Shown here: positions 9,511 to 53,833 of the stretch, one piece after another
Layout of the letters: each line of letters begins with the position of its first letter
Numbering within the stretch: the stretch's first letter is position 1
From: Aplectana chamaeleonis
Taxonomy: Eukaryota; Nematoda; Chromadorea; Rhabditida; Cosmocercidae
Direction of reading: 5' to 3'
DNA: 64,000 nucleotides
Assembly: GCA_029168955.1 (NCBI GenBank)
Contig: JAPDOI010000365.1
Coordinates: forward strand, 496,001-560,000
Position numbers and translations under genes: made by a program
The notes under the pieces: model-generated
The model's input: only the letters and a program-made list of their open reading frames with translations
Databases searched by the model: none
What the model was told of the DNA's origin: nothing

Positions 9511-9635
9511 ATGCTCATCTTCTCCTCTCTCCTTTCGCTGGCTCGATCAATTCCATTGAACGTTTCTGAATTCCCCACAGTTCCAATTCCTGCAGAGAAT
9601 TACACTGGTGAACGCCGATATACTGACGAACAAAG
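9511..9635 (+). CDS. nAChR exon 1: start, signal-like segment, N-terminus
   Basis: ATG at 9,511 follows a TTTCCAG acceptor. The frame begins MLIFSSLLSLARS, a short hydrophobic segment that could be a signal peptide, then two possible N-glycosylation sites (NVS at residue 17, NYT at residue 30). It ends TDEQ plus AG at 9,635, followed by GT. The two spare bases join the A at 9,690 to give Arg. The same frame is open upstream to about 9,391, so an earlier start or a preceding exon cannot be excluded. Confidence 0.7.
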
Positions 9636-9689
9636 GTCCCTATCAGAGCCGTTTTGCAGCGGAATGAACCTTATCTAAACGGATTTCAG

Positions 9690-9846
9690 ACTTTTGTATC
9701 ATTTGATGAAAGACTACGAAAAGGCGGTTCGTCCTGTGAGGAATGCATCGCATACAGTAACTGTTCGACTTGGAATGACAATGACAAACATATTTGATAT
9801 GGACGAGAGGAATCAAGTGCTCACAATCAACGTATGGCTTGATCAG
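9690..9846 (+). CDS. nAChR exon 2: first part of ligand-binding domain
   Basis: The exon follows GGATTTCAG and encodes LLYHLMKDYEKAVRPVRN, then ASHTVTVRLGMT and NQVLTINVWLDQ, the canonical opening of nicotinic receptor extracellular domains. Intron 1 is 54 bp (9,636-9,689). The exon ends in phase 0 at CAG before GTCCGC, a weak donor. It is followed by a 13.6-kb transposon-filled intron. Confidence 0.9.
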
Positions 9847-10734
9847 GTCCGCAAACATTGTCGTTTTCATTCCAGAATGGATAATTCCATCCAAATTAGG
9901 TGTCTGACATATTCTTTAAGACAGCCGTATTCTTAATACTTCTTTATTACCAAATTCATTTCCATAGTCATAATAAGGCATTGTTAAAAATGTGGCATCT
10001 AGTACTTCAGTAAGTTACCAGAGCTAATTTGTATTCGGCGTAATAGTTTTAATTGACAGAAACTGAATACCGTTTTTTCTCCATTAGAAGTACAATTTCT
10101 ATGAACCTCTGGTAGGATTTGGACAGAAAGAGCGCGAGAATTCGTTTTCGCGTTTTTTTTTTGTTCTTTTTGAATAACTCGCTTCAAACTTAACTTTGAG
10201 CCAAACTAGGGTGATATTCATGATCCTGGCTACACATTGGATCCGACTCATTTCGGAAAACTGCAAAAACAGGGTTTTCTCTTCACTTTCAGTCTAATGC
10301 TCCAAGAAAAGATTGTTTTCCAATCGAGACCGTTCAAAGCATTCATACGATGATAGTTTTGTTTCTGACTTGATCTTGAGTGTCCGCAAACAGAAGATTC
10401 TTTGAAATAATTCGGATACCCGCGAAAAATAGGATAATTTTGAAATCTAAGACAATCTCCGAATTAGTCAGAATTTGAAATCAGTTTACCTTTTCGACCC
10501 AGATTCATCTAAACACAAAACCATTCAGTTTTGGGTAGAGCAGAAAAAAGCGACTTTTGCAGATATCCTGAAAGAGTCTATTCCAATCCAAAGTCGTGTT
10601 CTTGTGCTAAAATAGTGCCACCCTTGCTAAAGCTGAATTTTGAGGGCGGAAGAATTGACCGCTACGAGGAATCAAATCTATCAATGCAATCAAGTGTTAT
10701 AGCTCATTTAACAGTACTTCCTTGATTTGATTAT
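9847..10734 (+). other. Start of large intron 2, no gene seen
   Basis: AT-rich intronic sequence without a recognised exon, RNA gene or repeat. Short frames here show no family resemblance. Confidence 0.5.
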
Positions 10735-10995
10735 TTGCTGTTATCACACTCTCAAGTTTTGATTTGTTCACGTCGAGTGGGCAGAAAAGAGGAGGGGGGC
10801 TGCCGAGATGTCGTACGTTCACGCCGTGGCAGTGTGGAGGAAAGAAGATCACCTCTATGCAAACCGACGTCACCCCCTCCACGAAGAGGGTTTTTGTCAT
10901 GGGAGAGGTGCTGGCTGGCCGCAGCTCTCCTGAGGATTCTATTACAAAGAGCCGGCGCCGAGAGGAATCCAGGACCCGCTCAGAAGAAGAAGTAA
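10735..10995 (+). pseudogene. LINE N-terminus with degenerate 2A-like peptide
   Basis: The 86-codon frame ends in a hydrophobic run (CWLAAALLRILLQRAG) followed by AERNPGP and lysines, then TAA. NPGP after a hydrophobic leader is the hallmark of 2A-like ribosome-skipping peptides (consensus D-V/I-E-x-N-P-G-P), known at the N-terminus of several APE-type LINEs. Here the Asp and Val before Glu are replaced by Gly and Ala, so activity is doubtful. The TAA is in the same frame as the following zinc finger, so the parts were once one protein. Confidence 0.6.
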
Positions 10996-13164
10996 CCATG
11001 TGCCACATGCGACAGAGATGTCAATTGGAATGGGACCAGCGTCCAATGCCTTGGATGCCAAAGGTGGGTGCACTTCTCTTGTTCGGGTCTCAGTTCTGTG
11101 AAGCATCATAACTCTTCTTTTCGCTGTGTTATATGCTCTTCACCTACCAACTCTGATTCCTCTTCCTCATATCGCCCCCTTTCCATTGTGCATATCAATC
11201 TCAACGGCCTTCGTACCAAACTTTCTGAGCTCTCTCTCTTCGCACGTACTTACCATCCAGACGTGCTCATGGTTCAAGAAACCAAGCTCTCTCCATCACC
11301 TACCCGTCCTCATCCTAACATCCCGGGCTACACTGCCTTTCATGCTCCAAGGTCAGCTCTTGGCGGAGGAGTTTCAACCTTTGTTTTATCTTCTCTTCCC
11401 TTCCACCTCATACCCAACACCCCCACGGATGGTACTCTCGAGTACCTTCCAATCCATCTCCCTCTTAAAACACCTCTTTCTCTCTTCAACATATATATTC
11501 CACCTACTACCTCATGCCCCTCTTTTTACAATCCTATTCCACTTCTCAAGCAGCTTTACGACTGCTCCCTCTCATCCTCAGTTGTCTTCGTGGGCGATTT
11601 TAATGCTCACACCTTTTGCTCGTCACTCGATTCTGACGCTAGAGGAAATGACGTCGAAGAATGGGCAGAGGAGTGTGACTTGGTCATCTTAAACGATGAT
11701 CAGCCCACTCGTCTCCCTACCAACGGCCGATCTTCCAGCCCAGACATTTCTTTTGTCTCGTCCAACCTCTCTAACTCTTGCTCATGGTCCACCACAACCA
11801 CTTTGCCAAGTGACCATGTCCCCATCTTTATCCATATCGATCTCTCCAACTCTCTCGCTCCCTATTCTGGTGTTCGTCAACGTTCTTATCTTAATTTAGG
11901 CCGAGCAGACTGGAACCTGTTCAGTGAAGTTGCGCTTCGCCTGTCGGCAAATTACCCGTGGAATGGCGACGTGCACCAGAAAGAGTGTCATTTATCTGAC
12001 GCGATCCGCAGAGCCATGAAAGCGGCTATTCCTGTCGGCCGCGTTAAGACGTTCTATCCAAATGTCACAAGGGAGATCCTCGATGAGATCAGGACAAGAG
12101 ATGCCAGGAGAGCGGTCGACCACCTGGACCCCGTCGTTGCTGAACTTGACGATGAGATCAAAAAGGATCTAGACAGGCACAAGAAAGAAGAGTGGGAAAA
12201 GTTCGCTGGGCAGTTGGACTTCAAGACGGACAGTGCAGCTACTTGGAAGGTATTACGGAAGCTCTCGGGTAAGAGCTTACCTGCTACCGTTTCCACAATC
12301 GAATTAGAAAACGGTGTATTCAAATCAGGAAAAGAAGCCGCTTATGCGCTCGGGAGAAGTTTTTTCATCACCAGTGCAAAGCGTGGTCCGCAGAATAGAG
12401 TGACTGTACGAAAGCTGTGCCGCCTCCCGCTTATGAGCACGGCCGAAGCGTTCACTATGACGCAAGTTGAAAAAGTTATAAAGGATATGCGGAATTCAAA
12501 AGCGGTCGGTCCAGACGGGATATGTCCTGCTGTCTTGAAGAAGATACCGAATGAAATCCTACCGCTTCTCACTGATTTGATCAATACCTCGTTCAGATCG
12601 TGCACCACCCCACAGAACTGGAAGACAGCTAACGTTGTGCCGCTGCCCAAGCCGGGGAAACCTCAGGCTTCAGTCAAGGGATACAGACCTATTAGCTTGC
12701 TGTCCACGTTCGCGAAGGTAGCCGAAAAACTGATCGTAAATGACTTGGCGGAGCACAATGAGAAGCAAGTGATTCAGCATGGATTCAGAAAGCTGCATTC
12801 CACCACGACAGCTCTGCTGGAAATTACAAGCTTTGCCATCGATGGGTTCAATGTCCAGAAGCTACAGAGAACTGTGGCTGTTGCCTTAGATCTCACCAAG
12901 GCATTCGACACAGTAAACCATGGAGTTCTGTTAAGCAACTTACTCGAATCATCAATACCGCCGTGGCAGAAACGCTGGATATCGGCATTCATCAAGGGCA
13001 GACGAGCCAGAGTTATGTTCCAGAACCATGTCTCCAATAGTATTCCTATTGCAGCTGGAGTTCCGCAGGGCGGCGTTTTATCGCCTGCCCTCTTCAGTCT
13101 GTACCTCGAAGACATGCCCGCTCCCCCCAGGATATCAAGGTGGTCGTCTATGCCGACGATATGA
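10996..13164 (+). pseudogene. LINE polyprotein: PHD-like finger, APE endonuclease, RT domains A-B
   Basis: Directly after the stop, codons 10,996-11,150 give C-x2-C-x12-C-x2-C-x4-H-x2-C-x14-C-x2-C, a PHD-like finger with WVH at its core. The endonuclease follows with HINLNGLRTK, QETKL, GDFNAH, SSPDISFV and PSDH, all catalytic signatures of the APE family. Reverse transcriptase shows VGPDGICPAVLK, YRPISLL, HGFRK, domain A ALDLTKAFDTVNH and domain B GVPQGGVLSPALFSLYL. The frame breaks in a C run near 13,121 and the YADD box continues in the next frame. The encoded enzyme would nick target DNA and prime reverse transcription there. Confidence 0.92.
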
Positions 13165-13781
13165 CAATAATGTGTCGGGATCGGGATATACATGTGGCCG
13201 CCTCCAAGACCAATGAGTACCTGGTCACACTGAAAAGCTTTTTCGACCGCAAAATGCTAAAGATCTCTGCATCCAAATCGACGGTATCCGTACTCACAAC
13301 GGATCCTTCGGAGCACAGCGCTCACCCGCATGTCGAGTGGGACGGAGATCGATTACCTGCTGCTCGCTTTCCCAAATTGCTCGGTCTGGTGCTCGATCCA
13401 TCGCTCAAGTTTCATAAGAACACCGAGCAGAAGCAGGCCGTCGTCAAAGCCAAGCTTAATGTGCTCAGAGCCCTGGGCGCTACATCATGGGGCAGTAGCA
13501 AAGAAACCATTATTACGACGTATAAGGCGATACTCCAGCCTGCACTAGAATACTGCGCGCCAGTTTGGCAGCATCTGGTTTCGGAATCCTCTAGGTCTAA
13601 ACTGCAACGCCTAGAGAATGCGGCTCTTGGAATAGCCGCCGGTTGTGCAACAAGCTCCCCAGTCGAGCATTTGCATGCGGAGACACGATTATTACCAGTA
13701 AAGAACACTGTCAGCTCCAGGCCCAACTATTTTTCATCAACATTGTCAAACAACCAAATCACCCCTCTTGGAGAGTGCTAA
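13140..13781 (+). pseudogene. LINE reverse transcriptase, YADD box and thumb, shifted frame
   Basis: This continues the LINE in another frame. It starts VVYADDMTIM, the catalytic RT domain C, and runs through FPKLLGLVLDPSLKF and LQPALEYCAPVWQ, typical of LINE RT thumb regions. After LLPVK, near 13,700, a one-base indel moves the coding frame to the one ending at 14,218. Confidence 0.9.
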
Positions 13782-14218
13782 ACCCCGTCAGAGAAAGAAA
13801 GATCAGAAAGCCATTCGCCGATGCTCCAAGCAAAGTCAATCTACAAAGATGGCACGATTCACAGCAAGAACGACTCCGTCTGTTGCGCGAAGAGCGCCCA
13901 CAGTTCGTACGGTGTCATTTGGAAAAGGCGGCGGTAAATCCCATCCTGGGAGTGGTGCCGCCCCGGGTCTGCACATCCGAGTCTCAACTCGGAAGGAGGG
14001 CCAGATGCACCCTGGCATCGCTGCGCTGTGGTCACTCTACTATGCTTATGGCATATGTTAGCAAGATTGACAGCACCGAATCGGACGTTTGCCCAGAATG
14101 TGGATGCCACGGCCACGATACGGCACATTTGTTTGATTGTCCGGAAAGACCAACCACGCTGACCACAATGGACCTATGGACGAATCCATTATTGGTCGCC
14201 CAGTTCCTCAACCTATGA
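13700..14218 (+). pseudogene. LINE C-terminus with zinc-knuckle
   Basis: After the second frameshift the frame continues EHCQLQAQLFFINIV, then LRCGHSTMLMAYVSKID and CPECGCHGHDTAHLFDCP, a C-x2-C...H...C knuckle found at the end of many Jockey/CR1-like LINE proteins. It stops at 14,216-14,218, about 25 bp before the AAG-rich tail. Confidence 0.85.
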
Positions 14219-14260
14219 CAGTACCCTCGACGTGGCTGCAAAGAAGAAGAAGAAGAGGAG

Positions 14261-14619
14261 GGGACGTTTCGGGGACTCCGGAACGCTTGTTTGCAGCCGT
14301 TCTTGTGCTAATACTGCTTTCGACACTGGGAGCAGAGGATTCTCTTTCTCAGACGTTCGCCGTTGTCCACAGGACACGGATGAGATGTCACCTCACGCAA
14401 TGCTCTCTGTAGACATCCGAAAAGGGCAGAGATCGCCCCTCGAGAACTGCCCGTCGCCCCCCTCCATGGTGCCGTAGACAACCTATCCGCGGAAACGCTT
14501 TTGCTGTAGACATCCCATCGGAGGAGAGTCTCCATCCCCGATTCCGCGTTCACATCCTATCAACATCCCGTAGACCTGATATTACCATCCCAGTGAAGCA
14601 TCAGCAGCCTTATGACGTC
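14261..14619 (+). other. GC-rich stretch after the LINE, unrecognised
   Basis: Open frames here are not recognised. One frame (RLFAAVLVLILLSTLGAED) faintly resembles the hydrophobic leader of the LINE just upstream, so this may be a 5' fragment of a related LINE. CCGTAGAC and CCCGTCGCCCCC tracts recur at 18,480-18,680, suggesting a shared repeat. Confidence 0.35.
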
Positions 14620-14800
14620 AACAATCGAAATTCGAATACTTCGTAAAAAGCGGTTTCAAATATTATTCGAAATTCGATCATTTCGAAAACAGACTTTCGA
14701 ATAGTATTCGAATTTCAAATATTTCAAAAACAGACTCTCGAATAATATTCGAAATTCGAATATTTTTAAGAGCATACTCGAATTTTTGAAATTCGAATAA
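14620..14800. repeat. TTCGAA/ATTCGAAT-rich degenerate repeat
   Basis: The stretch is built of loosely repeated ATTCGAAATTCGAATA-type words with spacers such as AAACAGACT. The same texture recurs at 16,990-17,240, 17,360-17,640 and 17,850-17,985, and more weakly near 50,400-51,130. It looks like a decayed tandem repeat, not coding sequence. Confidence 0.7.
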
Positions 14801-15118
14801 TCGAAATGCACAATCATCATTTCATTAGAAATTGTTTTTTTTTCTGATCAACCTTTGAAAGCACACTCTATCAAGGCACCATCTTGGCCTATTCACCCAC
14901 GCCTGATTTGGGGTTCTCACACGCTTGGATCGTGTGAAATATTGCGTCACCGTACAAGGCTCCATCGGTGGGATAGGCTGGCTTGAACGGCCAGCCAGCC
15001 ATTGGTTTCGCTCAGGCCTTGTGAATTTACGAGGAATTTAAAAACTTACGATTTACGATTTACGAAATTACAAAATTCAGTCACGCGCAGCCCTGCGCGA
15101 CGCGGCATGATCGATATT
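14801..15118. other. Intronic sequence, nothing recognised
   Basis: No gene or known repeat is recognised. The short palindrome GGCTGGCTTGAACGGCCAGCC lies near 14,978, with a TTACGATTTACGA duplication near 15,046-15,065. Confidence 0.4.
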
Positions 15119-15312
15119 AGGGGTCGTTTATACTTCTGCCGCCATTTGGCGCGGAGAGGCACATTTCTGTAGGGCGTCGTTTATACTTTCGCCGCTCAGC
15201 AGCGCGGCGAGGTGTAATGCTATATTATCAATCGTGTCGCGCCGCGTGATCAATACTACGGTAATGCACTTGGCCGCGCCGCTTGGCGGTGTGAGTATAA
15301 ACGTCGCATAAG
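15119..15312. mobile_element. Small MITE-like palindromic element
   Basis: GTCGTTTATACT occurs at the left end and again inside (about 15,178), and its inverse AGTATAAACG closes the right end near 15,294-15,303. The interior is GC-rich (GCCGCC, GCGCGG). The layout fits a short terminal-inverted-repeat element of unknown superfamily. Confidence 0.4.
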
Positions 15313-15651
15313 GTCAATGTTACACATTGTCGCTGCTATGAGCGACAGTCATGACATTTAGCACAAATACGGGACCAGCATCGGAGCAATCGCACTGGCC
15401 GTCGTAGGAACAGTTGTCGCGTGTCCGTCGCAGCGACGTGTCGTGGATGGCTGACATACTGCGAATGTGCCTATTCCTGTCGTTGCCACTGTCGCTGTCG
15501 CTGTGCAGCGCACTGCGACAGCGACAGATTTAAAGGGCGGGAGACTATCGCTGTCGCTGTGCAGAGCGACGCGACCTCGTGTCGCAAAACTATACCATTG
15601 GCCTGAAGCCCTTTTCATACCTTTGCTGCCGCGTCAACTACCCTTCCTTAC
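15313..15651. repeat. CTGTCG/CGACAG-rich stretch
   Basis: The stretch holds clustered CTGTCGCTGTCGCTGTG and its inverse TGCGACAGCGACAG around 15,477-15,570, which could form hairpins. No gene is supported. Confidence 0.45.
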
Positions 15652-15655
15652 TTAA

Positions 15656-16139
15656 AGGCAGTGTTCACGATAATCTTCAAGTTTGAGATTATTCGCTTTA
15701 TTGAATAAGGGGCCCCCGGGTAGAACTAAAATGACGTAGAAATTGAGAAAAACGCACCAGAAGTACACGAATTCCTTAAGTATCACCCCGCCTCTTAAGT
15801 ATCACAGGAACTGTTCGTTGTGACAATGAAATCTTTTGTGGACCCGTCCTTGGCAATTCTCTACTCTCTATTGCTCCGTTCTTTCCTTAGGGCCCTAACT
15901 AATCCTGCTTTGCATTGAACATTCTTCTATTTTCGATTGACTCAATTTTCCACCGGTGACAACCACCATGAACATGTCCATCCAACCGGACAACTAGTCC
16001 ATGTTATAGAGTAATGTCACTGAAATACGACGTTTTAATGCGTTTCTCGCCGTTTCTTCGTAATTTTGGTTACACTTGGAGGCCAACGCATTGTTTTATG
16101 TGAAAAACTTAGGGACGAAATTCATTGTGAGCACTGCCT
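15656..16139. mobile_element. TTAA-bounded MITE, copy A
   Basis: TTAA at 15,652-15,655 is followed by AGGCAGTGTTCACGATAA. The right end reads GTGAGCACTGCCT followed by TTAA at 16,140-16,143. The 484-bp element has no transposase frame. Its relatives in this window are listed at 37,174, 37,916, 38,798, 40,580 and 46,140. Confidence 0.85.
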
Positions 16140-16143
16140 TTAA

Positions 16144-16985
16144 GAAAAATGACAAAACGTGGCGGTGGCGGAGAAAACGTTCTCGATCGTTATTACCGCT
16201 ATTGCTGCGTTCGCCGCGCTTTACTGTTTCGTTACCAGTTCCGATCGCAAATTGATTTCGACAGCATTCTAATGTGGAAAGAAGCTAGTTGCCAACTTCC
16301 GGCTAATTTTTCAGTAATCCAATACACTGGCTCCATTGTAGCTCAAAAGCGGCATTTTCCGCGACTGCGAAAGGGCGTAGGGGTTTCAAGCTCGTGTGTT
16401 CAGCTCTGTCTCCCACCTGAAGTCGTGCAAGCTCGGCGGCAGCAAATCTGCCTAAGCCGCGCCGCGCCGTAGTAGTAGTAGTAGGTCTTGAGAGCGGCGC
16501 TAGGGTCTTGGGGCTTGGATGCGTTAAGGCGCTTCCCCGGAAAGGTATAGTGGTGGTCAAGTCTCGCCTGAAGCCAAGCGTCTTGTGCTAGACGCGCGTG
16601 ACGCGCTTGCGGAGACTATGAATACTCCAGCGGCGGCGCTATGGCGGAGCGGATTAGAATGGGTCCTAATTTTGCCGAGCAAGCAAAATCTGTACATGCG
16701 ATCACTATCATAGTAGCAGCGGATAGCACTAAAAATAATTATTATTAAACGGAATGAAATTGGAGACGGATTAATAGTGAAAGTGACGAAAAAGTTACGG
16801 CCGCCTCTGCCATGGCGCAGCGGGCGTCACGCGCGTGTCGCGCGGGCAAGTCGTCAGACCATTAATACATCAACGCCACGCTCGCGCGTGCCGCGTGCCT
16901 AACATTGTGGTAGGCTGATGAATATTTTTACAAAGTGATAGTCACAGCAAATGACAGCTCAAAACTATTTTTTTGAAATCGCACT
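16144..16985. other. Intronic sequence, nothing recognised
   Basis: Contains a short TAG repeat near 16,470-16,484 and GC-rich CGCGCGTGACGCG-type words that suggest unclassified repeats. No frame here resembles a known protein. Confidence 0.4.
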
Positions 16986-17985
16986 ATCATTCGTGAATTC
17001 GAGAAAATTTATCTGAAAAATAGAAATATTTATTCGAAAATTCGAAAAAATTATTCGAGAATTCGAAAATTTTGATTTTCGAATTTACTCGAAAATTCAA
17101 AATTCGAAAAATCAGTTTTTAGAATATAATCGAAAATCCGAAATTTGAAAATACCATTTTCGAGTTTATTCGAAAATTTGAAAATCGAAAAATCTGATTT
17201 CCGAATATATTCGAAAATTCAAAATTCGAAAAATTTTACAGTTTCGCTCAAGTATAGTAGTTATATACTACTTGATGGGAAAGTCATTTTAGCGTAGTCC
17301 GGAATGAGCAAAATGGAGTACATTGCGAGGATGCCCTCGCTATTATGATTTGACATTTTCAATTTTTTTTCGAATACTCGACCTTTCGAATGATTCAAAA
17401 TTTGAGTTTTTCAAATAGTTCGAAAATTTGAGCTCTTCGAATATTCGACTTTTCGAATATTCGGTTATCGAATCATTCGGAAATCGGCGCTTTTCCAATA
17501 GTCGGTTCTCGAATAATTCGGGGATTCGCAATTTTCGAATATTTGGTTTTTCGAATCATTCGGAAATTGACACCTCTCGAATATTCGACTTTTCGAAGTC
17601 GAATTTTCCAGTCGAATGAATATTCGAATCATTCGATTCGGTCAGAGTATACTCGCTACTAGTAGTTAAAGCTGTGAGTGACTCTGGCCTAATCGCAGAT
17701 CATAAAACCTTTCTATTCTATCTACCTTTTTTTTCTATTCTACCTTAGATCATAAATCTCAGAAAGGTAGGTGGACCATCAAGACTAGAATGTTTCTTCG
17801 TGTCCAAATTTTTTCCAGGTTGGCTATTTGGTACACATCGGACCGAACTGTTATTTTCGAACATTTTTAGAATGCTTTTTGGAATTTCGAATCGTTCAAA
17901 ATTCGAGATTTTGGTTTTCAAATATTATTCGAATATTTCGAAAACGGATTTCCGAATGATATTCGAAATTCGAATACTCCGTAAA
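16986..17985. repeat. TTCGAA-rich repeat tracts
   Basis: ATTCGAAAATTCGAAAAAT-type words fill 16,990-17,240 and 17,360-17,640, and recur at 17,850-17,985. They match the tract at 14,620-14,800. Small open frames inside (for example 17,343-17,619) are by-products of the repeat. Confidence 0.65.
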
Positions 17986-19290
17986 AAACTATGTAACTAC
18001 GCTAATTTTTTTTAAATTTACATTTTTTCTTCTAGCTACATTTACCTCTCCTCGCGTATTGACAACATGAGTGGGAATCAGGGTAAATAAACACCACCGA
18101 ATGATCAGAGATTCCTCTCAAACATTTTAAAACGACGACGCAAATGACACACATAAACGCACGGATAAAACCGAAATCTGCCTACGAAGGCGGTTGCTGA
18201 AAGCTCCGTAAACCACGGAGTCCTTCGGGTCCACCACGGGGAACTCCGCGAGGTCCACCTCTCGGCAGGACACCAACACCCCTTCCACGGAAAGACGTTG
18301 TTGAAAAACGAATCGCAGATCTCACATAATCAAAAAATAAGAAGAATTATTATAGAAGTCTACAGCATCATTAAAAAAAACGAATTGCGAATGTAACATA
18401 ACCAAAAATGAGAACTCGGACGGCACAGTCTTCGTGATACATCGATTGATGGACGCTACCAACACCCCTCCTCGCGAATGTTCTGTAGAACAGCCCATCG
18501 ACCTACACCGCCGTAGACATCCCGAATCGACGTCCTGTGGACAACAACTCGGTCTAGGTCGATTGCTGAACGATAGGCTGTTTAACAGCCCGTCGCCCCC
18601 TGCTCAACAGCACACCGGGTCGGCCCCGCGTAGAGCTGCCTGTTCGCCAGCGGTGACTCGTTCTGGGCGGATCGACGTCCTGTAGAGAACGGCGAACGTC
18701 TGAGTTACCCATCATTTTGCAGTGGAAAATCACCGTTAATTCTCACTGTAAAGGTCCCCTCTAAAGAAATTTCGATTAGAAGCTTCACGATTTCTTAACT
18801 ATGAATGCTCTCGGCTATGTTTTCATACTTCAAATCCTGTTCAACCCATGCATTTGAATGAAACCGCATCCTGTGAAGTTGTTGGTTACGATGAAAGTAA
18901 TCGATCACATAATAGTTGTTTTCTGTTTTCAGCAATCAGTGAGACCTCATCGAATTCATTCGTTGGTATTCGAGGTGGATTCCAGCAGTAATTCAATGAA
19001 ATACACAAAATATCTGGTTATGAGTACCATGTTTTACAAAGGAAAATATTGCGCAGTACACCATTGCGATGATTTTCACATGTGCACTTCTATCATCAAA
19101 GATGATTCTAGTTTCGGCTAACTTTTTTTTTCATGGAAAAATGAGAAAATTCATTATTCTGTTGCTAAAAAGTTTTCGAAAATAGTATTGGCATTTCTCA
19201 TCTTTTCTCATGCATTATATTCTGTGAAAAACAATGTTGAGATACTTGTACTATGTACGTACTGGTGCTTGTTAATAAGTGAAAATGCTA
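17986..19290. other. Intronic sequence, nothing recognised
   Basis: No exon or family match. The CGTAGACATCCCGAATCGACG and CCGTCGCCCCCTGC words at 18,500-18,690 echo 14,400-14,580, suggesting a shared old repeat. Confidence 0.4.
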
Positions 19291-20011
19291 TTAGGTTGAT
19301 GCAAAAGTTTCCGGACTTTCACGACTTTAAATTTAAAAAAATATTTATTTCGGAAGCAAACAAGGCTCACCCAACAAAATAATATCCATAACATTCAAGG
19401 ATCCTTTGCCACCGATTGGGCAGATCATGAATTCCCGAAGCGTAGAACTCTGGCTGTTTCGAGTCGAAGTATTCTTCTAAGGCCATTTTGACTTCGTCAT
19501 CGTTAGTGAACTGTTTTCCATCCAGGAAGTGCTGCATCAAGCGGAACAGATGGTAGTCGGAAGGGGCAAGATCTGGGCTGTATGGAGGGTGAGGAAGAAC
19601 TTCCCAGCCGAGGTCCAGCAGTTTCTGTCGGGTTATCCGAGATACGTGTGGCCGAGCATTTTCGTGAAGAAGGCGAACAGAATCTGCTGGACCTGAGCTG
19701 TGAAGTTCTTCCTCACCCTTCATATAGCCCAGATCTTGCCCCTTCCGAATAGCATCTGTTCCGTTCGATGCAGCGCTTCCTGGATGGAAAACAGTTCACT
19801 AACGATGACGAAGTCAAAATGGCCTTAGAAGAATACTTCGACTCGAAACAGCCAGAGTTCTACGCGTCGGGAAATCATGATCAGCCCAATCGTTGGCGAA
19901 GGATCCTTGAATGTGATGGAAATTATTTTGTTGGGTGAGCCTTGTTCGCTCTTGAAATAAATGTTTTCTATTCAATGTCTTACAAGTCCGGAAACTTTTG
20001 CATCAACCTAA
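19291..20011. mobile_element. Foldback mariner deletion derivative
   Basis: The 721-bp element has matching ends TTAGGTTGATGCAAAAGTTT (28 bp identical in inverse) and is flanked by TA at 19,289-19,290 and 20,012-20,013. Both halves carry the same 3' part of a mariner transposase gene in opposite orientation: 19,367-19,723 on minus and about 19,700-19,938 on plus, each ending in a YFVG C-terminus. The HENARPHVS catalytic segment survives only in the minus half. The 5' half of the gene is gone. This mariner differs from the copies at 8,021 and 29,121 in its ends. Confidence 0.92.
19367..19723 (-). pseudogene. Mariner transposase C-terminal fragment
   Basis: The frame includes [11 protein letters not shown] (second catalytic Asp position is Glu-Asn here), [23 protein letters not shown] (third catalytic Asp) and ends ECYGYYFVG. 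It is the 3' third of a mariner transposase; the first catalytic region is absent. A mirror copy runs on the plus strand in the right half of the element. Confidence 0.88.
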
Positions 20012-20432
20012 TATTGCTAATTTTGAGCAATCGTCTTGTTCATTAGGTTCATACGTTTCAAGCAGAATAAGCCATCACTAATAATGTTGATCAAAAAATG
20101 TGTTAGATTCCTGAAGATTTGGGATCAGGGGTGTGCGGCAAAGGAATTTGAAATTTCGGCAAACGGCAACGGCAACGGCAAACCCCAAAAATGACCGGCA
20201 AACGGCAAAACGGCAAAATCTGTTTTGTGCTATAATACACCAACATTTGTTTAGTGATGTGGTATTCCATGCAATATCTGCCAGTTACTATGTGAAAGGC
20301 GTTACACTAGCCTTCACAGGAAGGAAAAATCTCATATATCGAAGCTACTTAAAAGCCTCAGGCGATCAGAAAACGCCCGTGGTCCTGTTCTGTATGTGAT
20401 CTGTGCAGGAGTCCCTCACAAGTTCAAAAAGG

Positions 20433-20635
<203 letters not shown>

Positions 20636-21281
20636 CACAAGTTTACACTCATGTGAAAGAAAAAAGAAAAAAATGAGACAAAAAAAAACAACCTCAAACG
20701 AAGTAGTCAAAGATGTAAACATTGTAACCAACTGGAACGAACAATAGTCAAAAGAGAAGAGCAGCTTCAGCCAATCCCTCGCGGGAGATAATTCTGTTGA
20801 TTTCCTCACCCCTAATCAAAGTTTCCGTAAAAATCAGTGCTAGAGATACAAATTTGGGCGTCTTTTTGAGCAGTGCAAAGTGTGATTGACCCGCAAGGGA
20901 TTGACATACTCTGAAAGGTCAGCGCGACCCAGCCTAGTCGATCCGGGGGCGGGTAGCAAACTCGAGATTTTATTTCGCTTACTTCAAACTGCGGTTGAAT
21001 GGTTTCACTCGTGAGGCTACAGGAGTGGACTGAGACTAGTCTAGCTGGGTGCTCACGATAAAAGCAGCTTTTGAATTAACACCGGAAATCAAGAGCTCCG
21101 AGGGGCACGTTGATCGAACACACAGAAAGAGAGGCATCTAGTGAGAGTTTGACGGGTACGACGCGCGCGACGGAAAGCCGCTGCGCTCACGTCTGGAGCG
21201 TCCGCGTACAGTGCGTTTAGTCAGCCGTACTGCTCTTGGGCGCTTGCCTTTCTGTGTATTCGGCCTACAAGCCGGCACGAG

Positions 21282-21486
21282 GCCCATTACAACAACAATG
21301 TCGGCTAAAAGCGAGCAATAGATTGCTCTACAAGGTCCCAAACTTGAATGTGGTGTGCTCGCCCCACCCACTTCCCCTGTCGCTACCGAGAAAGTAGGTG
21401 GGGGGGGCACACCATGTTCAACTTTCGGGCCGTATATTGCTAGTGGGTGCTCGTTTTCAGACGGTTTTCGACATTGTTGTTGCAAT
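21282..21486. repeat. Imperfect hairpin inside the hAT element
   Basis: ACAACAACAATGTCG near 21,290 and its inverse near 21,470, and CCCAAACTTGAATGTGGTGTG at 21,338 with its inverse near 21,410, define nested stems around a short loop. The 115-codon minus frame over this region is not recognised and is probably not a gene. Confidence 0.6.
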
Positions 21487-22616
21487 GAACCTTGGATCTT
21501 TCGGTTTCTGGTGAAAAGTTAAATGCGGTTCCAATAGTTGCCTTATTTTAGGATTTTTCATTTTTTCTTCTTTACACCATTTCTGAACAAACTTAGCTCT
21601 GAGTCAACCCTTCGTTTCAGCTTATGATCTCGAAATCGGAAATATGATTGAACACCGCCTTTGATGACCGCTGTGAACATTTTTCAATTATAAAAAAGCT
21701 GGACAAAGCATTTGCAGAATTGATCAATTTCCTGCCACAATTACGTACTATTAACATCAGCCCATCAACCGACGACAAGCAGGCTGATCTACACGAGTTC
21801 TCAACGGGTTCATATGTCTGAAAAGGCTGCTTTTAGGCTACAACTTTGATACCACTTGGTTTTGAAATCGTGGAGCTTGCAGGAATCGATATGCTCTCGG
21901 GAAAGAGGTTTTCTTTGCAATTTTGGCATTTCTAAGGGTCCGAGAATTTGATGGTTGAGAAAAGACATTCGGAGGCTCCCAAACAACTTAGAACTTGAAC
22001 GAGCTTCTCTGATTACCTCGTCAGGTTTTTGCCATCAATTTATTTTCATTCATTGTGACGTGGGCGAGAACTAAAGAAAGTGAAAGAGAATTGCTTGTCT
22101 CAATAATACTACATATTAAAGGCAGGATTCGATCTGTTGGAGAAAAAATTGACTCTAATTTGGGGTTTGTTTGTCATAGTACGGAGCATCAGGCATTCTC
22201 TTCTAGTTCTGGAGGATGTGAGACTAAAAAATTTGCTTGAAAATACGGGCGTTTTACCGCTTAGGATTTTAAAGGCCATGACCAAGTCAAACTTACATAG
22301 CTCTTCTTCAGAGAAAAGTCAGAAGACCTAGTCAAATTCTTCTGTCATTTACCCATTTAATGGGAACAGTCACACATTACATGAGCTAGAACTAGTAGCT
22401 GAAACTAGTTAAAATAATTATTTGTAGCAGCTTCGAATCGCTGACCAATACAGAAACGATGGTGAGGGCAAATCTTGTAGTTTTGAAGCACTTTTGCCGA
22501 AAATTTGCCGTTTTAAACGTAAATTTCGGCAAACGGCAACGGCAACTGCAAACCCCAAAAATAGCCGGCAAACGGCAATCGGCAAACGGCAATTGCCGCA
22601 CACCCCTGTTTGGGAT

Positions 22617-22917
22617 GCTTCTCCACATCTTTCTTGCGAAGTGTCTCGCAAATTTGACTGTAACTCTCACTTTCTCATAATCTGCTAGAATATCCTGTGT
22701 TGCCCAAGGATTTTTTCGTAAATCGTCAGAATTGGGTTACAGGGATCCAACCCTGTCCTTATCTGCAAAGGGACCATGGCCCTGCTGTTTGCAGGCCGCA
22801 GGTCCCACTTCAGACCGGGCCCCGCAGTCTGTAGTAGGGTAGAACTCCACAGCAGGCCCCAGGCCAAAGTCTAACTATATACGGAGAATAGTGTAATTGA
22901 CAATCACCAACCAGAAA
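22617..22917. other. Intronic sequence, nothing recognised
   Basis: Contains short palindromic words (GGACCATGGCCC, CTGCTGTTTGCAGG), but no gene or clear element boundary. Confidence 0.4.
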
Positions 22918-23001
22918 CTGCATAGCGGGATACGAACCTCCAACCCGTCCAAGTCGCCATTTCGTTGTCAGCTTGGCTATCCACTTGACCATTTCGCCGC
23001 C
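22918..23001 (-). ncRNA. tRNA-like sequence, possible SINE head
   Basis: On the minus strand GAAATGGTCAAGTGGATAGC resembles a pol III A box and GGTTCGTATCCC matches the B box pattern GGTTCRANNCC, with about 40 bp between. The T stem pairs poorly (GGAGG against CCCGC), so it is not a functional tRNA. A tRNA-derived SINE or tRNA pseudogene is the likeliest reading. Confidence 0.35.
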
Positions 23002-23479
23002 AACGCACTGACCGATACATAGGTTGGGTTATGTGAGGAGCTCTCAATGCGAGCTCAATGGTCGGGGTTATATATCATAACTTTTGATCCGAACAAGATT
23101 AATGCCCCAAATCTTTTCTACATCTATTCTGAACATACGTAAAGGTAATTCAATCGTTAAATCAGCTCTACGCACTTCGACCGACCCGTTCTGGTCTTGT
23201 TCAGATTTTGACCTCTTTAGGGACTACCTGAGGCATTTAGCCGATTCTGAGTCTGGGATATTGGAACATTGTCCTCTCCCCTAAAACATATTAAAATTGC
23301 ATCCCGAAACTCCAGCTTTTCTTGGCAAACCTCCCTTGTCAGTCCTTCAGGTCCTATAGGAGCAGGCGAAGTTAAACTTTTGATGAAAATCCTTCTCAAA
23401 AAAGTCAATTTACTGCTCGGAATGTGTTATGATGGGCAACCGTGTACACTGAAATTTATGTGACATACTCAACTTGTAG

Positions 23480-23589
23480 GAATGGAACGACGAGTTGCTG
23501 AGGTGGAATCCAGACGATTTTGGAGGCATTCAATCACTTCGGGTTCCTTGCGACTTAATTTGGCTGCCAGACATTGTCTTGTACAATAA
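23480..23589 (+). CDS. nAChR exon 3: loop A region
   Basis: The exon follows ACTTGTAG and encodes [16 protein letters not shown], then [22 protein letters not shown] is the loop A signature of the agonist site. It ends with AA at 23,588-23,589 before GTAGGT; the T at 27,752 completes Asn. This continues exon 2 (LDQ) in phase 0. Confidence 0.93.
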
Positions 23590-27751: not shown

Positions 27752-27855
27752 TGCTGACGACTACACAGCAGGCTACATGCGTTCAAGGGCCATGGTCCTT
27801 TACACAGGCACTGTGTTCTGGCCGCCTCCGACTCAGCTTCGCAGCACATGCAAGG
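27752..27855 (+). CDS. nAChR exon 4: binding-domain core up to first Cys of the Cys-loop
   Basis: Following GAATTCAG, the exon supplies the T that completes Asn and then ADDYTAGYMRSRAMVLYTG, VFWPPPTQLRSTCK. It ends with a single G at 27,855 before GTATGT. The Cys in STC (residue 164) is the first Cys-loop cysteine. Confidence 0.95.
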
Positions 27856-27915: not shown

Positions 27916-28067
27916 TTGATGTCTCGCTGTTCCCCTTTGATGAACAGCGATGTTCGCTGAAATTCGGTTCATGGACATATCATGGATTTCAAGTGGACGT
28001 CACGAATCGAAGTGAAAACATTGACTTGACAAACTACGTTCCTTCCGGAGAATTCGACCTTGTTAAG
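27916..28067 (+). CDS. nAChR exon 5: Cys-loop and loop B
   Basis: Intron 4 is only 60 bp (27,856-27,915, GTATGT to TTGCAG). The exon completes Val and encodes DVSLFPFDEQRC, closing the 13-residue Cys-loop, then KFGSWTYHGFQVDVTNRS with the loop B Trp, and NYVPSGEFDLVK. Phase 0 end at 28,067. An N-glycosylation site (NRS) lies here. Confidence 0.96.
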
Positions 28068-28728
28068 GTTTGTGTGAGTGTACGCCATCAATGTCGTTTG
28101 TTATTCTGTCTTGTCATTTTTTAACGCTCGTGAGCCCTACGTCGATTCCGCTTTAGGTTGCGCCTTGACGAATTTGACTTTTAATTCATGGTGCACGTTT
28201 TTTCATCAATACAGAATCTAGCTTCAAGGCACCGTCCAGCCTAAAATTCAATTTTTAGAAATTTTGCGTATCCTGGAGGGGATTTCTGAACAACATGCTA
28301 TACATAGTGTCGATGGAATCGCTCGAAGCCTCTGCGAACGAAATTCATCGGAAACTTTTTGAACGAGCCGCCTCGAGTGTATCCTTACTAAGAATTTGCA
28401 GCCGTTTCACAAAAGCTGAAAGTTTTTAAAGAGTTTCTGAAACATTCGTTACTTTCTTGAGCGGCTTTCTGTGGTTTTGAAATGCAGTGCGCTGACATAT
28501 AAACTTTTCAAACTGCTATCTAAGGATTGGCATTTTGCGGAAAAATGTCGTGCACCCTACCCGCTTTTGAAAAAAGTGTCTTCTAAAATGTAGCGCACGA
28601 CGAAATTTCGAGCATTGAGTGTACGAGTAAAAGAACAGCATTATCAATACCTTTTTTATATAACACGAAAAGGTAGTTTCTTGAACGATCAATTGAGAGC
28701 TTCTTTGAAAATCACCTTTTATTGGCAT
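28068..28728. other. Intronic sequence with a diverged foldback arm
   Basis: No exon is seen. 28,575-28,728 resembles, inverted and diverged, the sequence around 34,378-34,730 (for example CACCTTTTATTGGCATTA against TAATGCCAATAAAAGGTG), so part of it is a fragment of the same foldback family. Confidence 0.55.
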
Positions 28729-28730
28729 TA

Positions 28731-29118
28731 TTTCGGTGTATAACACCTTTATCAAGCCTGTAATGTTTCAAATATGTATACAGCAAGTATCTAGCATGGT
28801 CGTAGTAAACAATGCAAACTATGTACTAACTAAGCGAGTCACAAAACCGATTAGTGCGGTCTGCAAAGGCCCTTTTCTGGAGTTGCCAAAATCAACGGCT
28901 CTAACAAGCTCACCCTCTAAGAGACCACGTAGAGGGTGAGCTTGTTAGAGCCGTTGATTTTGGCAACTCCATAAAAGGGACTTTGCAGACCGCACTAATC
29001 GGCTTCGTGACTCGCTTGGTTAGTACATACTTTGCATTGTTTACTACGACCCTGCTAGATATTTGCTGTATACATATTTGAAACATTACAGGCTTGATAA
29101 GGGTGTTATACACCGAAA
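28731..29118. mobile_element. 388-bp near-perfect palindromic MITE
   Basis: The two arms of about 190 bp start TTTCGGTGTATAACACC and end in its inverse, with TA at 28,729-28,730 and 29,119-29,120. They match with few differences and meet near 28,926 at AGAGACCACGTAGAGGGTG. A TA target duplication is plausible. The right-hand TA is also the target of mariner copy 2. Confidence 0.88.
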
Positions 29119-29120
29119 TA

Positions 29121-30423
29121 CCAGGTTGTTCAATAAGTTTCGTCGTTCGATAAGAAAAACACAATTTTATAGTTCAAAATACACTTTATTATTCAGTATA
29201 ATCTCTCTGGACATTCATACACTTGCTCCAACAATCCTCCAATCTGTGGATCCCATCCCTGAAGTGAGAATCGGAAGGTCCGCACAATACGCTTCAACAG
29301 CCTTATGACCTCTTCATTTGATTAAAAACGCTTGCCACGCATACATTTTTTGAGTTCTGGAAACAAATGGAAGTCGCTGGGGGCCAAATCTGGTGAATAC
29401 GATGGATGCTCCAACAATTCGAACTTTAATTCATGGATTTTAGCCATTGTCAAAATGCTCTTACAACACGGTGTGTTGTCCTGATGAAAAAGGATTTTTT
29501 TCTTCTGCAAACCGGGTCTTTTTTCACGATTTTTAGCTTCAACTGGTCCAAAAAGGGTTGCTGTAATATTCAGAATTGATTATTTTACCAGTTTGCAAGT
29601 AATTCACAAAGGAAATTCCTTTCGCATCCCAAAAAACTGATGCCATAACCTTCTTCGCCGATTTCCGGATACGAACTCGGTTCGAAGCCAAACAACCAGG
29701 TTCACACCACTCTTTAGACTCTTGTTTTGATTCAGGATCATGGTGATAGACTCAAGTCTCATTCATATTCATAGTGGTGAATCGATGCACATCCATAGTG
29801 ATGAATCGATGCACGAAATCCACTTTCTCCCTTTTAAAACGCTCCAAATGTTGCTGAGAAAGTCGCATTCGAGTGTGTTTCTGTTCCATTGTTAGCGAAT
29901 GCGGCACCCATTGTGCACACAGCTTTCTAAAACCCGAAATTTCACTTCAAATATGGCTCACACCCCCTAATGAGAGCCTCTACTAAATCTCTCTCAGTCA
30001 ATCGACGATCTTCCAAAACCATATCCTGTTTTTCGGCTATGATTTCTGGTGTTTATGCGCTTTTTGGACGTCCTTCACGTGGATCGTCTTCAAGGCTTGT
30101 ACGACCACCTTTAAATTCAGCAACCCATCTTTATACTTTTCTAATTGTGGGTGAACAATCATTATGCACTTTTAACATTCGTTCGTGAATTTCTTTTGGT
30201 GCTACACCTTCCAAAAATGAGAATTTTATCACTAAACGCTATTAAATTTTTTCCATTGTTGTGACGCGGCGACACTAAATGGCTTGTAAACAAAAAATGA
30301 ATTGACAGATTGAAATGAAACTTCGCATACGTTCATATTAAGAGTGTACCAACAAAACAAAAAGGATTGGGCTAGTAGCAACGCCCTCGCTCATCGAACG
30401 ACAAAAAGTATTGAATAACCTGG
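29121..30423 (-). mobile_element. Defective mariner transposon, copy 2
   Basis: The 1,303-bp element has complete ends, CCAGGTTGTTCAATA on the left and TATTGAATAACCTGG on the right, each flanked by TA. The minus-strand transposase is broken by stops and frameshifts but retains HQDNTPC and [17 protein letters not shown] (second and third catalytic positions, about 29,375-29,490). Its position relative to flank and array mirrors copy 1 exactly. Confidence 0.92.
29322..29510 (-). pseudogene. Mariner transposase fragment with second and third catalytic Asp
   Basis: The 62-codon frame starts QKKKILFHQDNTPCCKS and includes [17 protein letters not shown], the third-Asp motif of DD34D transposases lost in copy 1. 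Upstream parts with the WVPHSL motif and the first Asp region (about 29,750-29,915) lie in other frames. Confidence 0.85.
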
Positions 30424-33412: not shown

Positions 33413-33578
33413 ACAATCCAACCTCAGGGGGGAAATTTAGTATAATGTTATTTGGGGCTCTGAACACAATTATGAAGTCTTTTTTCAAGTTTCCAGTAGA
33501 TTACGGAAGATAACGACCGGAAGATCATAAACGACCTTTTTGCTTTTTTTCTCAAAGGGAACCTTTGTTAAAATAAAA
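33413..33578. other. Spacer between array 2 and palindromic MITE
   Basis: Unrecognised sequence starting near CACAATCCAACCTCAGGGG. No gene. Confidence 0.4.
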
Positions 33579-34258
33579 TGAAATTTGTAACTGTTTTGCT
33601 TCGCTATAAAAGGGTTATGATTTGGCATTGAGGAAATCACGAGAATCTCGTTAAAAGAAGTGAAATACTTCTTGTGTATGATTTGGCACATTTGGCACGA
33701 GGGAACGCCAAAAAGTGAGTGAAATGATGGACCATTGATTTGACCGTACACTTGTTCAATAAACAACAAAAATTGAGAGTAGCATTGAAAAAACAAATCA
33801 CACCCGTATTTTCTCCAATCAAGCTAATATTTACAACTTAGCTTTGCAGAGCTGAGAATCAAGTTTTAGCGTTCACCAAAAATTCAGAAACGCATAATTT
33901 CGAATATTACTGATTCCTTCATGTCTGTATATTCGCTAGCGGATAAGTAATGAACCACATTTGTATCAGAAACAATATTTAATGAATTTGAAATTAATTG
34001 CAGTCACACAAAGATATGTGGGTGCTCAGTAAGACGGGTGTGATTTGGTTTTTCAATGCTACTCTCAATTTTTGTTGTTTATTAAACAAGTGTACGGCCA
34101 AATCAATGGTCCATCATTTCACTCACTTTTTGGCGTTCCCTCATGCCAAATGTGCCAAATCATACACAAGAAGTATTTCACTTCTTTTAACGAGATTCTC
34201 GTGATTTCTTCAATGCCAAATCATAACCCTTTTATAGCGAAGCAAAACGGTTACAAAT
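33579..34258. mobile_element. 680-bp palindromic MITE
   Basis: Arms of roughly 240 bp, TTTGTAACTGTTTTGCTTCG at the left and its inverse at the right, are separated by about 200 bp. Shared inner words include GATTTGGCACATTTGGCACG and GAGTGAAATGATGGACCATT. The right end abuts a mariner end fragment, so it probably inserted in or beside a mariner. No transposase frame. Confidence 0.85.
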
Positions 34259-34376
34259 TGACAGATTGAAATGAAACTTCACATAGGTTCATATGAAGAG
34301 TGTACCAACAAAACAAAAAAAATTGGGCTAGTAGCAACGCCGTCTCTTATCGAACGACAAAACTTATTGAACAACC
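34259..34376. mobile_element. Mariner end fragment
   Basis: Closely matches 30,300-30,423, including TTGACAGATTGAAATGAAAC, AGAGTGTACCAACAAAAC, and the terminal TTATTGAACAACCTGG followed by TA. Only the terminal ~118 bp remain. Confidence 0.85.
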
Positions 34377-34439
34377 TGGTAATGCCAATAAAAGGTGATT
34401 TTCAAAGAAGTTCTCAATCGATCGTTGAAGAAACCAACA

Positions 34440-35239
34440 AGTACAATACCCGCGCTAAGTTTTGTAAAAACGGGGAGCATCTGGCAAACTTGGCAGAAAA
34501 GCGTCCGATGCATGTAACTTTGTTGAATGAAGACTTTTTTGAATTCTGAAAACGCTATCATATTCACAGAATAAATTGCTACCTAATCATGTCACTTGTG
34601 TGCCGAAGTTCCCTAAGAGCACTTCGTTTTTGAAGGAAATTGTTTGTGCAATCGTTTTTCAAAAACGTCGCGCGCGGCGAAGTGCGGCGAAACTTTGAGC
34701 AGTATTTGTACAAGTAATGGAAGAGCAATCGGTATGTTTTCTTCAAAAATTAGGTGCAGGTGAGAGAATCTCAAGGTTTGTTCAGGTTGAATTTTCGAAA
34801 TCCTCAATTAAACACGCCTAAGAACTACCTGAAAAGTCGGAGTTTTGTTGCGAAATCCCCGGACTCGTAAATGAAGGATTTCAAAAATTCAACCTAAACA
34901 AACCTTGAGATTCTCCCACCTGCACCTAATTTATGAAGAAAGCATACAGATTGCTCTTCCATTACTTGTACAAATACTGCTCAAAGTTTCGCCGCATTCG
35001 CCGCGCGCGACGTTTTTTGAAAAACGATTGCAAAAAATATTTCCTTCAAAAACGAAGTGCTCTTAGGGAACTTCGGAACACAAGTGACATGATTAGGTAG
35101 CAATTTATTCTGTGAATATGATAGCGTTTTCAGAATTCAAAAAAGTCTTCATTCAAAAAAGTTGCATGCATCGGACGGTTTTTTGCCAAGTTTGCCAGAT
35201 GCTCCCCGTTGTTACAAAACTTAGCGCGGGTATTGTACT
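34440..35239. mobile_element. 800-bp foldback element
   Basis: AGTACAATACCCGCGCTAAG at the left is inverted at the right end, and the arms pair along most of their length, including GCTCTTAGGGAACTTCGG and GAAAACGCTATCATATTCAC-type words, meeting near 34,840. The centre contains CGTCGCGCGCGGCG in both arms. No transposase frame. Confidence 0.88.
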
Positions 35240-35393
35240 AATGAGACTTCGGTATAGCACAATTTTTACCAAATAGCGAGATGAATTTTAGATTCCGGAA
35301 ACAGGAATTCCGTTTATCCCTGGAGCTGATACTCTCGAGGTCTATAACCTTGGCACGCGTCGTACACAGTCTCTTCAGCAATTCTTCTTTTAG

Positions 35394-35544
35394 GTCTACC
35401 AAAAACGTCGTGTTGTGAAGTACACCTGCTGTCCTGAGCCCTATCCAGACATAACTTTTTTCATATACATTCGTCGAAAAACGCTCTATTATCTTTACAA
35501 TATTGTATTTCCGTGTCTGATGATGTCCGTGTTGACCCTTCTTG
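35394..35544 (+). CDS. nAChR exon 6: loop C with vicinal cysteines, M1
   Basis: After TTCTTTTAG the exon encodes VYQKRRVVKYTCCPEPYPDI, with vicinal Cys 228-229 that mark an agonist-binding alpha subunit, then FFIYIRRKTLYYLYN and the start of M1 (IVFPCLMMSVLTLL). It ends with one G before GTGAGT. It joins exon 5 in phase 0. Confidence 0.96.
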
Positions 35545-35607: not shown

Positions 35608-35675
35608 TGTTCGTACTACCCCCAGATTCTGGTGAAAAAATAGCGCTCGGTATTACCGTATTGCTCGCCTTTTCC
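35608..35675 (+). CDS. nAChR exon 7: M1-M2 linker and first half of M2
   Basis: Intron 6 spans 63 bp. The exon completes Val and encodes [19 protein letters not shown] then AFS. GEK before M2 is the cation-selectivity filter signature. It ends in phase 0 before GTGAGT. Confidence 0.96.
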
Positions 35676-35741: not shown

Positions 35742-35861
35742 GTGTTCGTGCTTGCAATAGCAGAAAAGATGCCGGAGACATCAGATTCGATGCCGCTCAT
35801 CGGTATCTACCTCACCGTTGTTATGGGCATGACCTCGGTCTCCGTAGTCATGACTGTTTTG
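35742..35861 (+). CDS. nAChR exon 8: second half of M2 and M3
   Basis: Intron 7 spans 66 bp and ends ACTAAG. The 40-codon exon encodes [20 protein letters not shown], then [20 protein letters not shown], finishing M2, the M2-M3 coupling loop ([12 protein letters not shown]) and M3. Phase 0 on both sides. Confidence 0.96.
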
Positions 35862-44149: not shown

Positions 44150-44263
44150 GTGCTGAACTTCCACCATCGTGGTCCATTCAACGAGCCGGTACCACCTTGG
44201 GTTCGAACATTGGTCCTGGAGCGACTACGACGATTTCTTCGTATGAAGCTTTCCGGCAAAGGT
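44150..44263 (+). pseudogene. nAChR exon 9: post-M3 segment with apparent 2-bp insertion
   Basis: The exon joins exon 8 in phase 0 and reads VLNFHHRGPFNEPVPPWVRT then LVLE, the conserved start of the M3-M4 loop. GAGAG at 44,219-44,223 then shifts the frame and gives TGA at 44,246-44,248. If two of these bases are skipped, the frame continues RLRRFLRMKLSGK to the donor at 44,264. This fits the family well and points to a 2-bp GA duplication in the gene or a sequencing error. Confidence 0.82.
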
Positions 44264-46735: not shown

Positions 46736-46739
46736 TTAA

Positions 46740-52862: not shown

Positions 52863-52959
52863 AATGCTTCCAGGAGACTCTTCAAAGGTTTCTATCTGTT
52901 CGAACAATATGATGAGACGGTTATCAGTTCGTGTCGCTATGGACGATATGCGAAATGAG
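52863..52959 (+). CDS. Probable nAChR exon 10: M3-M4 loop
   Basis: After ATAATTTAG and one base, the frame reads MLPGDSSKVSICSNNMMRRL then SVRVAMDDMRNE and stops at a GTGAAT donor in phase 0. The serine-rich, basic composition suits the cytoplasmic loop, which is poorly conserved, so the call rests on splice sites and agreement with the next exons. Its entry phase needs two bases from a preceding exon, and exon 9 as corrected leaves one, so an unseen exon probably lies between. Confidence 0.5.
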
Positions 52960-53598
52960 GTGAATTTCGTTCCGTCCAGAGAAAATCAGGAGCCCTTTCT
53001 TCCAGCTTGAAAGAAGGAAAAGAGAATTGGCCTTGAAATTTCTCTTACATGATTTGAGGCAACTGTGAGGAACGTCGGAAAAAATATAACGGAAACCCGA
53101 ATTCCTCTGCTCCGGTATCATGTACTTCTGGAAACAGAAAAATACGCTCATGATGATACTCATGCGGTGAAGCATGCTCATTCTGAGGGCAGGTCCTGGC
53201 GTCGTGGCCCCACCTGTGTTTAAAGATTCATGCAGAAGTGACGCTAAAACGTGATTAGGGGTTTGTGAATCGGAACTGTCACTGACGTTCTGTTAAATGG
53301 TTGTTCTTCTTTGAATTATAAATGTTTTGGATTAAGTTGTTCTTCTTCTTCCAATTTCACAACAAACACAGACAAATAGCGCTTCTGGGAGGGGTCCGAG
53401 AAAATCGCCAAAAATTTGACCTATTCACGCTTCTGGGAGGGGTCTGAAAGAATCGCCAAAAGTTTGCTTCTGGAGGGGGGGTCTGAGTAAATTTAGCCTC
53501 GTCCACACCTCGTGCCGAACCCTGACAGCGGTAACGCCCGCTCTCACGACGTATGGATGCTGCCTCAGAGGAACAATAGTTACTTTTCTCAATTTCAG

Positions 53599-53652
53599 AT
53601 CATTAACGAGATGGGACCCGATCTGCTGAACGGTGGTAGCGCTGCTTCTGAA
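53599..53652 (+). CDS. Probable nAChR exon 11: M3-M4 loop
   Basis: An 18-codon exon (IINEMGPDLLNGGSAASE) between TCAATTTCAG and GTATGT, phase 0 on both sides, in agreement with exons 10 and 12. Confidence 0.55.
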
Positions 53653-53704
53653 GTATGTTGACCTGAACATTCCAAGCTCTTCAATACAATTTTCCGAATT
53701 GCAG

Positions 53705-53833
53705 TCGATTCGCCGTGATTCGCTTCTACTCGATGTGCCACACACAGAAATCTCGGTAGATCGGAATGGGGTCACGAGGAAACGTCCACGACCCACAGAT
53801 GACCTGCAAGTCAAACTTCTCAAAACCTTACAG
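53705..53833 (+). CDS. Probable nAChR exon 12: end of M3-M4 loop
   Basis: A 43-codon exon, phase 0 on both sides, between CGAATTGCAG and GTTAGT; the preceding intron is 52 bp. It encodes SIRRDSLLLDVPHTEISVDR, then KRPRPTDDLQVKLLKTLQ. DDLQVKLL-type segments are usual just before the amphipathic MA helix and M4 of nicotinic subunits. The following exon with M4 is not found. Confidence 0.65.

Follow-up and report, generated by a model that had tools for sequence, protein, structure and literature searches.

We asked whether the short exons that lie scattered over a large part of a contig of the nematode Aplectana chamaeleonis form a single gene and, if so, which receptor this gene encodes. The window, by which we mean the whole stretch of DNA that was analysed, comprises 64,000 nucleotides (contig JAPDOI010000365.1, positions 496,001 to 560,000 of the forward strand), and all coordinates given here refer to it. 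An earlier note on this DNA had proposed a nicotinic receptor gene of eight exons. The best explanation of our results, which we hold with high confidence, is that the window contains the 5' and middle part of acr-26 in 12 exons, with the M4 exon likely located beyond position 64000.

Exons, frame and extent of the gene

All eight exon starts of the earlier note proved exact. Each of these exons lies between an AG and a GT, and when joined they yield 329 residues without a stop, in which the nicotinic hallmarks that had been pointed out, WLPD, C-x13-C, YTCC and GEK, can be read by eye. We also found no phase conflict, as had been claimed; phase agreement is a property of any real gene and is unremarkable on its own. 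Searching the window by tblastn with annotated orthologues revealed four additional exons downstream. The full model consists of 12 exons on the forward strand, encodes 456 residues in 1368 coding bases and has a span of 44323 nucleotides. All 11 introns start with GT and end with AG, and the phases are consistent throughout. The gene had been described as scattered over 44 kb. This holds as a lower limit, since its exons spread over at least 44 kb, but the eight exons are not all of them: there are four more, the end position given for the gene, 53,833, marks where exon 12 stops, and M4 was not found in the window.

The exons were compared with the annotated protein Q1695_008496 of Nippostrongylus brasiliensis (P0001, a hypothetical protein of 520 aa), to which the 456 residues are 90% identical over their full length. 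Exon 1 (9511..9635) carries the start codon, a putative signal peptide and the N-terminus in an open frame that ends at a donor GT, and 33 of its 42 aligned residues equal those of P0001. The ligand-binding domain is encoded by exon 2 (9690..9846; phase 2 in and 0 out; 52/53 residues equal to P0001), exon 3 (23480..23589; 36/37), which contains WLPD, exon 4 (27752..27855; 36/36) and exon 5 (27916..28067; 51/51), which also supplies the remainder of the Cys-loop. The YTCC loop and M1 are found in exon 6 (35394..35544; 51/51), GEK and M2 in exon 7 (35608..35675; 23/23) and M3 in exon 8 (35742..35861; 40/40). Among the added exons, which are likewise flanked by AG and GT, exon 9 (44150..44261; E 1.35e-15 in tblastn with P0001; 28/38 residues) encodes the end of M3 and the start of the cytoplasmic loop. 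The loop continues in exon 10 (52874..52959; E 1.2e-9 with P0003 and 3.4e-6 with P0001; 22/30 aligned columns equal to P0001) and exon 11 (53599..53652; 15/18), and exon 12 (53705..53833; 29/43 columns) extends from the loop to the pre-M4 region; the latter two were recovered jointly with P0001 at E 7.6e-16. The tblastn matches of the exon pieces of P0001 to the window range from 34.7 bits for the weakest to 202 bits, compared to a best match of 25.8 bits among 51 control queries, consisting of reversed P0001 and 50 shuffles of it.

Three donors, GTCCCT of exon 1, GTCCGC of exon 2 and GTGACC of exon 9, look weak by eye. The start codon of exon 1 lies immediately 3' of TTTCCAG, which could be a candidate trans-splice acceptor. 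M4 and the last ~60 residues of the orthologues were not found in 53801-64000, the 10.2 kb that follow exon 12, when the three forward frames were scanned without gaps with 52-residue C-terminal pieces of three orthologues at a threshold of 38. Since other introns of the gene measure 4-14 kb, a distant last exon is likely. Thus, at least one further exon encoding M4 most likely lies beyond position 64000, and the gene continues past the end of the window.

It had also been claimed that an annotation based on open reading frames (ORFs) would miss the gene entirely. This is true for a naive ORF list, in which a single ORF of at least 120 aa is in frame on any exon, namely 27741-28124 (127 aa, exons 4 and 5). 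It does not apply to normal eukaryotic annotation, by which the gene can be found, since annotated orthologues of 519-524 aa exist in four species, N. brasiliensis, the hookworms A. duodenale and N. americanus, and H. contortus.

Receptor class and probable assignment to ACR-26

The 329-residue translation matches the Pfam ligand-binding domain PF02931 with an E-value of 2.7e-67, and its residues 253-328 match the membrane region PF02932 with an E-value of 1.9e-22. The presence of M1-M3, as read in the earlier note, is borne out by PF02932 and by the alignment to alpha-7; the PDB matches are led by nicotinic receptor chains, alpha-7 among them. The translation contains the Cys-x13-Cys loop that characterises Cys-loop receptors. 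Moreover, loop C, encoded by exon 6, has the vicinal cysteines of the YxCC type (YTCC) that mark alpha subunits of nicotinic acetylcholine receptors. The reading of these exons as a nematode nicotinic receptor gene is therefore well supported, and we infer that it can be narrowed to ACR-26, as set out below.

When the joined exons were searched against protein databases, in line with the check suggested in the earlier note, annotated nematode orthologues were matched along all or nearly all of the 456 residues. Besides P0001, the proteins of A. duodenale, H. contortus, T. colubriformis and N. americanus show 87-89% identity over 98-100% of the length. Within the core, residues 43-329, 285 of 287 residues are the same as in P0001. 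Most of the differences from P0001 fall in exon 1 and, further on, in exons 9 to 12, which carry the cytoplasmic loop between M3 and M4; such a pattern would be expected of a gene under selection. The locus is an intact-looking, ordinary worm gene and truly belongs to a known family of receptors. A tree was built from 45 rows, the window protein and 44 receptor proteins hand-picked from 148, all of them listed relatives. One of its branches, with support 100/100, separates the 29 nematode rows from the others. The window protein, which is on a short branch (0.044), groups with six strongylid worms (100/98). Hookworms are its nearest neighbours in the tree, with weak support (89/30), whereas BLAST gives N. 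brasiliensis as the best match. Among the strongylids, the Cylicocyclus nassatus protein P0009 (317 aa) stands apart: its core agrees with the window protein at 244 of 265 residues, compared to 97-99% in six other strongylids, which could reflect a duplicate gene or an error in the gene model.

In the parts of the literature that describe them, acr-26 and acr-27 are acetylcholine-gated receptor genes of H. contortus that are not found in C. elegans (PMC4054779), and for ACR-26 the lack of a C. elegans orthologue is also stated in PMC4666645. As described in the latter, ACR-26 has the YxCC motif, and homologues of it occur in molluscs, an annelid, Ixodes and Daphnia, whereas ACR-27, its closest paralogue, is without YxCC and was found only in nematodes; the mature ACR-26 proteins of H. 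contortus and Parascaris are reported there to be 69.7% identical. We compared these descriptions with the relatives of the window protein, the best 120 of 3330 and the best 120 of 3050 matches, which together give 148 distinct rows, each a 90% cluster with a shortened name and some of them unnamed. Proteins of Lottia, Aplysia, Capitella, Ixodes and Daphnia are among the matches listed. No C. elegans name occurs in the 148 distinct rows with their shortened names, in which Caenorhabditis auriculariae is present. In one of the two lists, YxCC is found in all 35 named nematode relatives and in 116 of all 120 rows, so the motif alone discriminates poorly. Counted from the TDEQ motif, the proteins of H. 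contortus (P0004) and Ascaris (P0011) share 333 identical residues, which amounts to 72% of 460 aligned or 67% of 494 total columns and brackets the published 69.7%. On the basis of YTCC, the mollusc, annelid and arthropod relatives, the lack of a C. elegans name in the rows listed and the H. contortus-Ascaris identity, we call the subunit ACR-26. This is the most likely identity of the predicted protein, judged against published descriptions and not against a labelled ACR-26 sequence.

Three other readings have to be weighed against acr-26. The same gene might be present as a decayed or truncated pseudogene copy that has lost M4, for which the absence of M4 from the 10.2 kb after exon 12 could be cited. 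We consider this very unlikely, since the 1368 coding bases are free of stops and frameshifts, the core is nearly the same as that of N. brasiliensis, the branch in the tree is short and the long introns elsewhere make a remote last exon likely. Alternatively, the gene could encode a nematode alpha subunit that belongs elsewhere, such as an ACR-16-like protein or a further unnamed orphan. That the comparison was made without labelled ACR-26 or C. elegans references leaves room for this, as do the database names of the relatives, which read 'alpha-10-like', 'type D' and 'acr-16-like'. The relatives outside nematodes, YxCC and the H. contortus-Ascaris identity, however, fit the published ACR-26, and so does the observation that none of the 148 distinct rows listed names C. 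elegans, which makes membership of another alpha group highly improbable. Finally, exons of at least two neighbouring genes may have been wrongly joined across the long introns, in whose partly repeat-filled sequence gene ends could hide. This is contradicted by annotated proteins from four species (P0001 to P0004), each of which is collinear, as a single protein, with all 12 exons, and we regard its probability as negligible.

With the gene assigned to acr-26, the relatives listed include ten free-living or plant-parasitic nematodes: Caenorhabditis auriculariae, Auanema, two Mesorhabditis, Acrobeloides, Plectus, Panagrolaimus, two Ditylenchus and Aphelenchoides. Their core identity to the window protein is 268/287 in Auanema and 266/287 in C. 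auriculariae and goes down to 195/287 in Aphelenchoides. The check for YxCC covered these nematodes except for Panagrolaimus P0241 and Ditylenchus destructor P0218. All ten fall inside the nematode group of the tree, which holds no other nematode receptor groups; Plectus, which fills 46% of the columns, is oddly placed beside Steinernema, and the branch of Aphelenchoides is long. Among the open-licence papers listed in literature searches, no title or abstract opening reported acr-26 in a free-living Caenorhabditis, and none was listed for an acetylcholine receptor in C. auriculariae. It is likely, in our judgement, that ACR-26 is an old nematode subunit that is not tied to animal parasitism, having been retained by many lineages that are free-living or parasitic on plants, among them C. 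auriculariae, whereas C. elegans has lost it. If true, this would undercut the suggestion, made in 2015, that retention of acr-26 reflects animal parasitism, and it suggests that the near parasite-only distribution seen at that time may have depended on the genomes then available.

Introns, repeats and mobile elements

The sizes of the introns are, in order, 54, 13633, 4162, 60, 7326, 63, 66, 8288, 8612, 639 and 52 bp. Short and long introns are mixed, and the regular alternation that had been described is not seen. To find repeats, we counted the bases with a match elsewhere in the window or on its opposite strand, a measure that is blind to elements present once. In the five long introns, 2294/13633, 1353/4162, 6168/7326, 4529/8288 and 86/8612 bases are repeat-matching. 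The view that the long introns are made of transposons is thus correct in part: repeats are present in some of them, but intron 9 (8612 bp) has nearly none by this self-match test. Repeats explain part of the length of the gene and some introns are enlarged, and the gene model illustrates this repeat-driven enlargement.

Intron 2 (9847..23479, forward strand, 13.6 kb) harbours a LINE with a broken frame at 10996-14218, in which parts of an endonuclease and of a reverse transcriptase are present, together with a PHD-finger match that stays below the cut-off; Pfam RVT_1 and Exo_endo_phos_2 were matched on 10996-13161. A search with the LINE protein gave 97 matches (7991 candidates scored), of which the best (P0133, 89% covered) is 37% identical. 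The best relatives of the LINE protein are approximately 35% identical and mostly unnamed, and no nematode is found among the few named rows. Further downstream in the same intron, 19367-19795 shows a motif recognised by eye that we take to be mariner-like; Pfam gave no match on 19370-19795. Intron 5 (28068..35393, forward strand, 7.3 kb) consists mostly of repeats and contains an inverted copy of a 42-bp satellite element.

The 42-bp satellite forms an array of 163.7 copies upstream of the gene (window 1-6849) and a second array of 42.6 copies in intron 5 (31594-33380), in the opposite orientation. The inverted copies 6801-9288 and 29124-31642, which are 95% identical over 2529 bp, connect the satellite array, at its end, with a piece of mariner-type transposase (Pfam Transposase_1, 8392-8880), and one of them stops 222 bp before the start codon. 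They resemble a mobile element that carries a tandem array inside it. Long palindromic repeats occur in introns 2, 3 and 5, where 19289-20013, 25304-26185, 28729-29120 and 34440-35239 match their own reverse complement at 78-94%; more of them are found in introns 3 and 8. Downstream of the exons, the minus strand of 60140-62711 matches DUF5641 above the cut-off and Pao peptidase A17 just below it. DUF5641 is presumably associated with BEL/Pao, and these pieces look like a BEL/Pao retrotransposon. A degenerate array of ~21-bp units (62776-64000) runs off the window end. Scans of the window for tRNAs and Rfam families gave no match.

In H. contortus, introns are reported to be longer than in C. 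elegans, with an average of 633 bp (PMC4054779), a value that the long introns of the present gene far exceed.

Proposed receptor and comparison with known subunits

Ordinary cis-splicing would join the exons into the transcript of an alpha-type nicotinic acetylcholine receptor subunit. By analogy with ACR-26 of H. contortus and Parascaris, the subunit would most likely pair with the non-alpha subunit ACR-27 to form a cation channel of body-wall muscle, and this channel would be expected to open to acetylcholine, morantel and pyrantel. According to the account in PMC4666645, ACR-26 of both species required ACR-27 to produce currents in oocytes, and the resulting receptor was highly sensitive to morantel and pyrantel; occasional homomeric channels of Ascaris ACR-26, seen by another group, are cited in the same paper. 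The gene would add another orthologue to an anthelmintic target subunit that has already been described.

Among the known proteins, P0001 has the same order of segments across the 12 exons and additionally has M4 and the C-terminus, which were not found in this window. The alpha-7 nicotinic receptor (PDB 9vix) belongs to the same family and shares its motifs, aligning across residues 41-329, but is a distant relative, scoring 303 bits compared to 732 bits for P0001. With ACR-26 of H. contortus and Parascaris, the window protein has the YxCC alpha type in common; those proteins were tested in oocytes with ACR-27, whereas the present comparison is one of sequence alone. From ACR-27, which is without YxCC, it differs by its YTCC.
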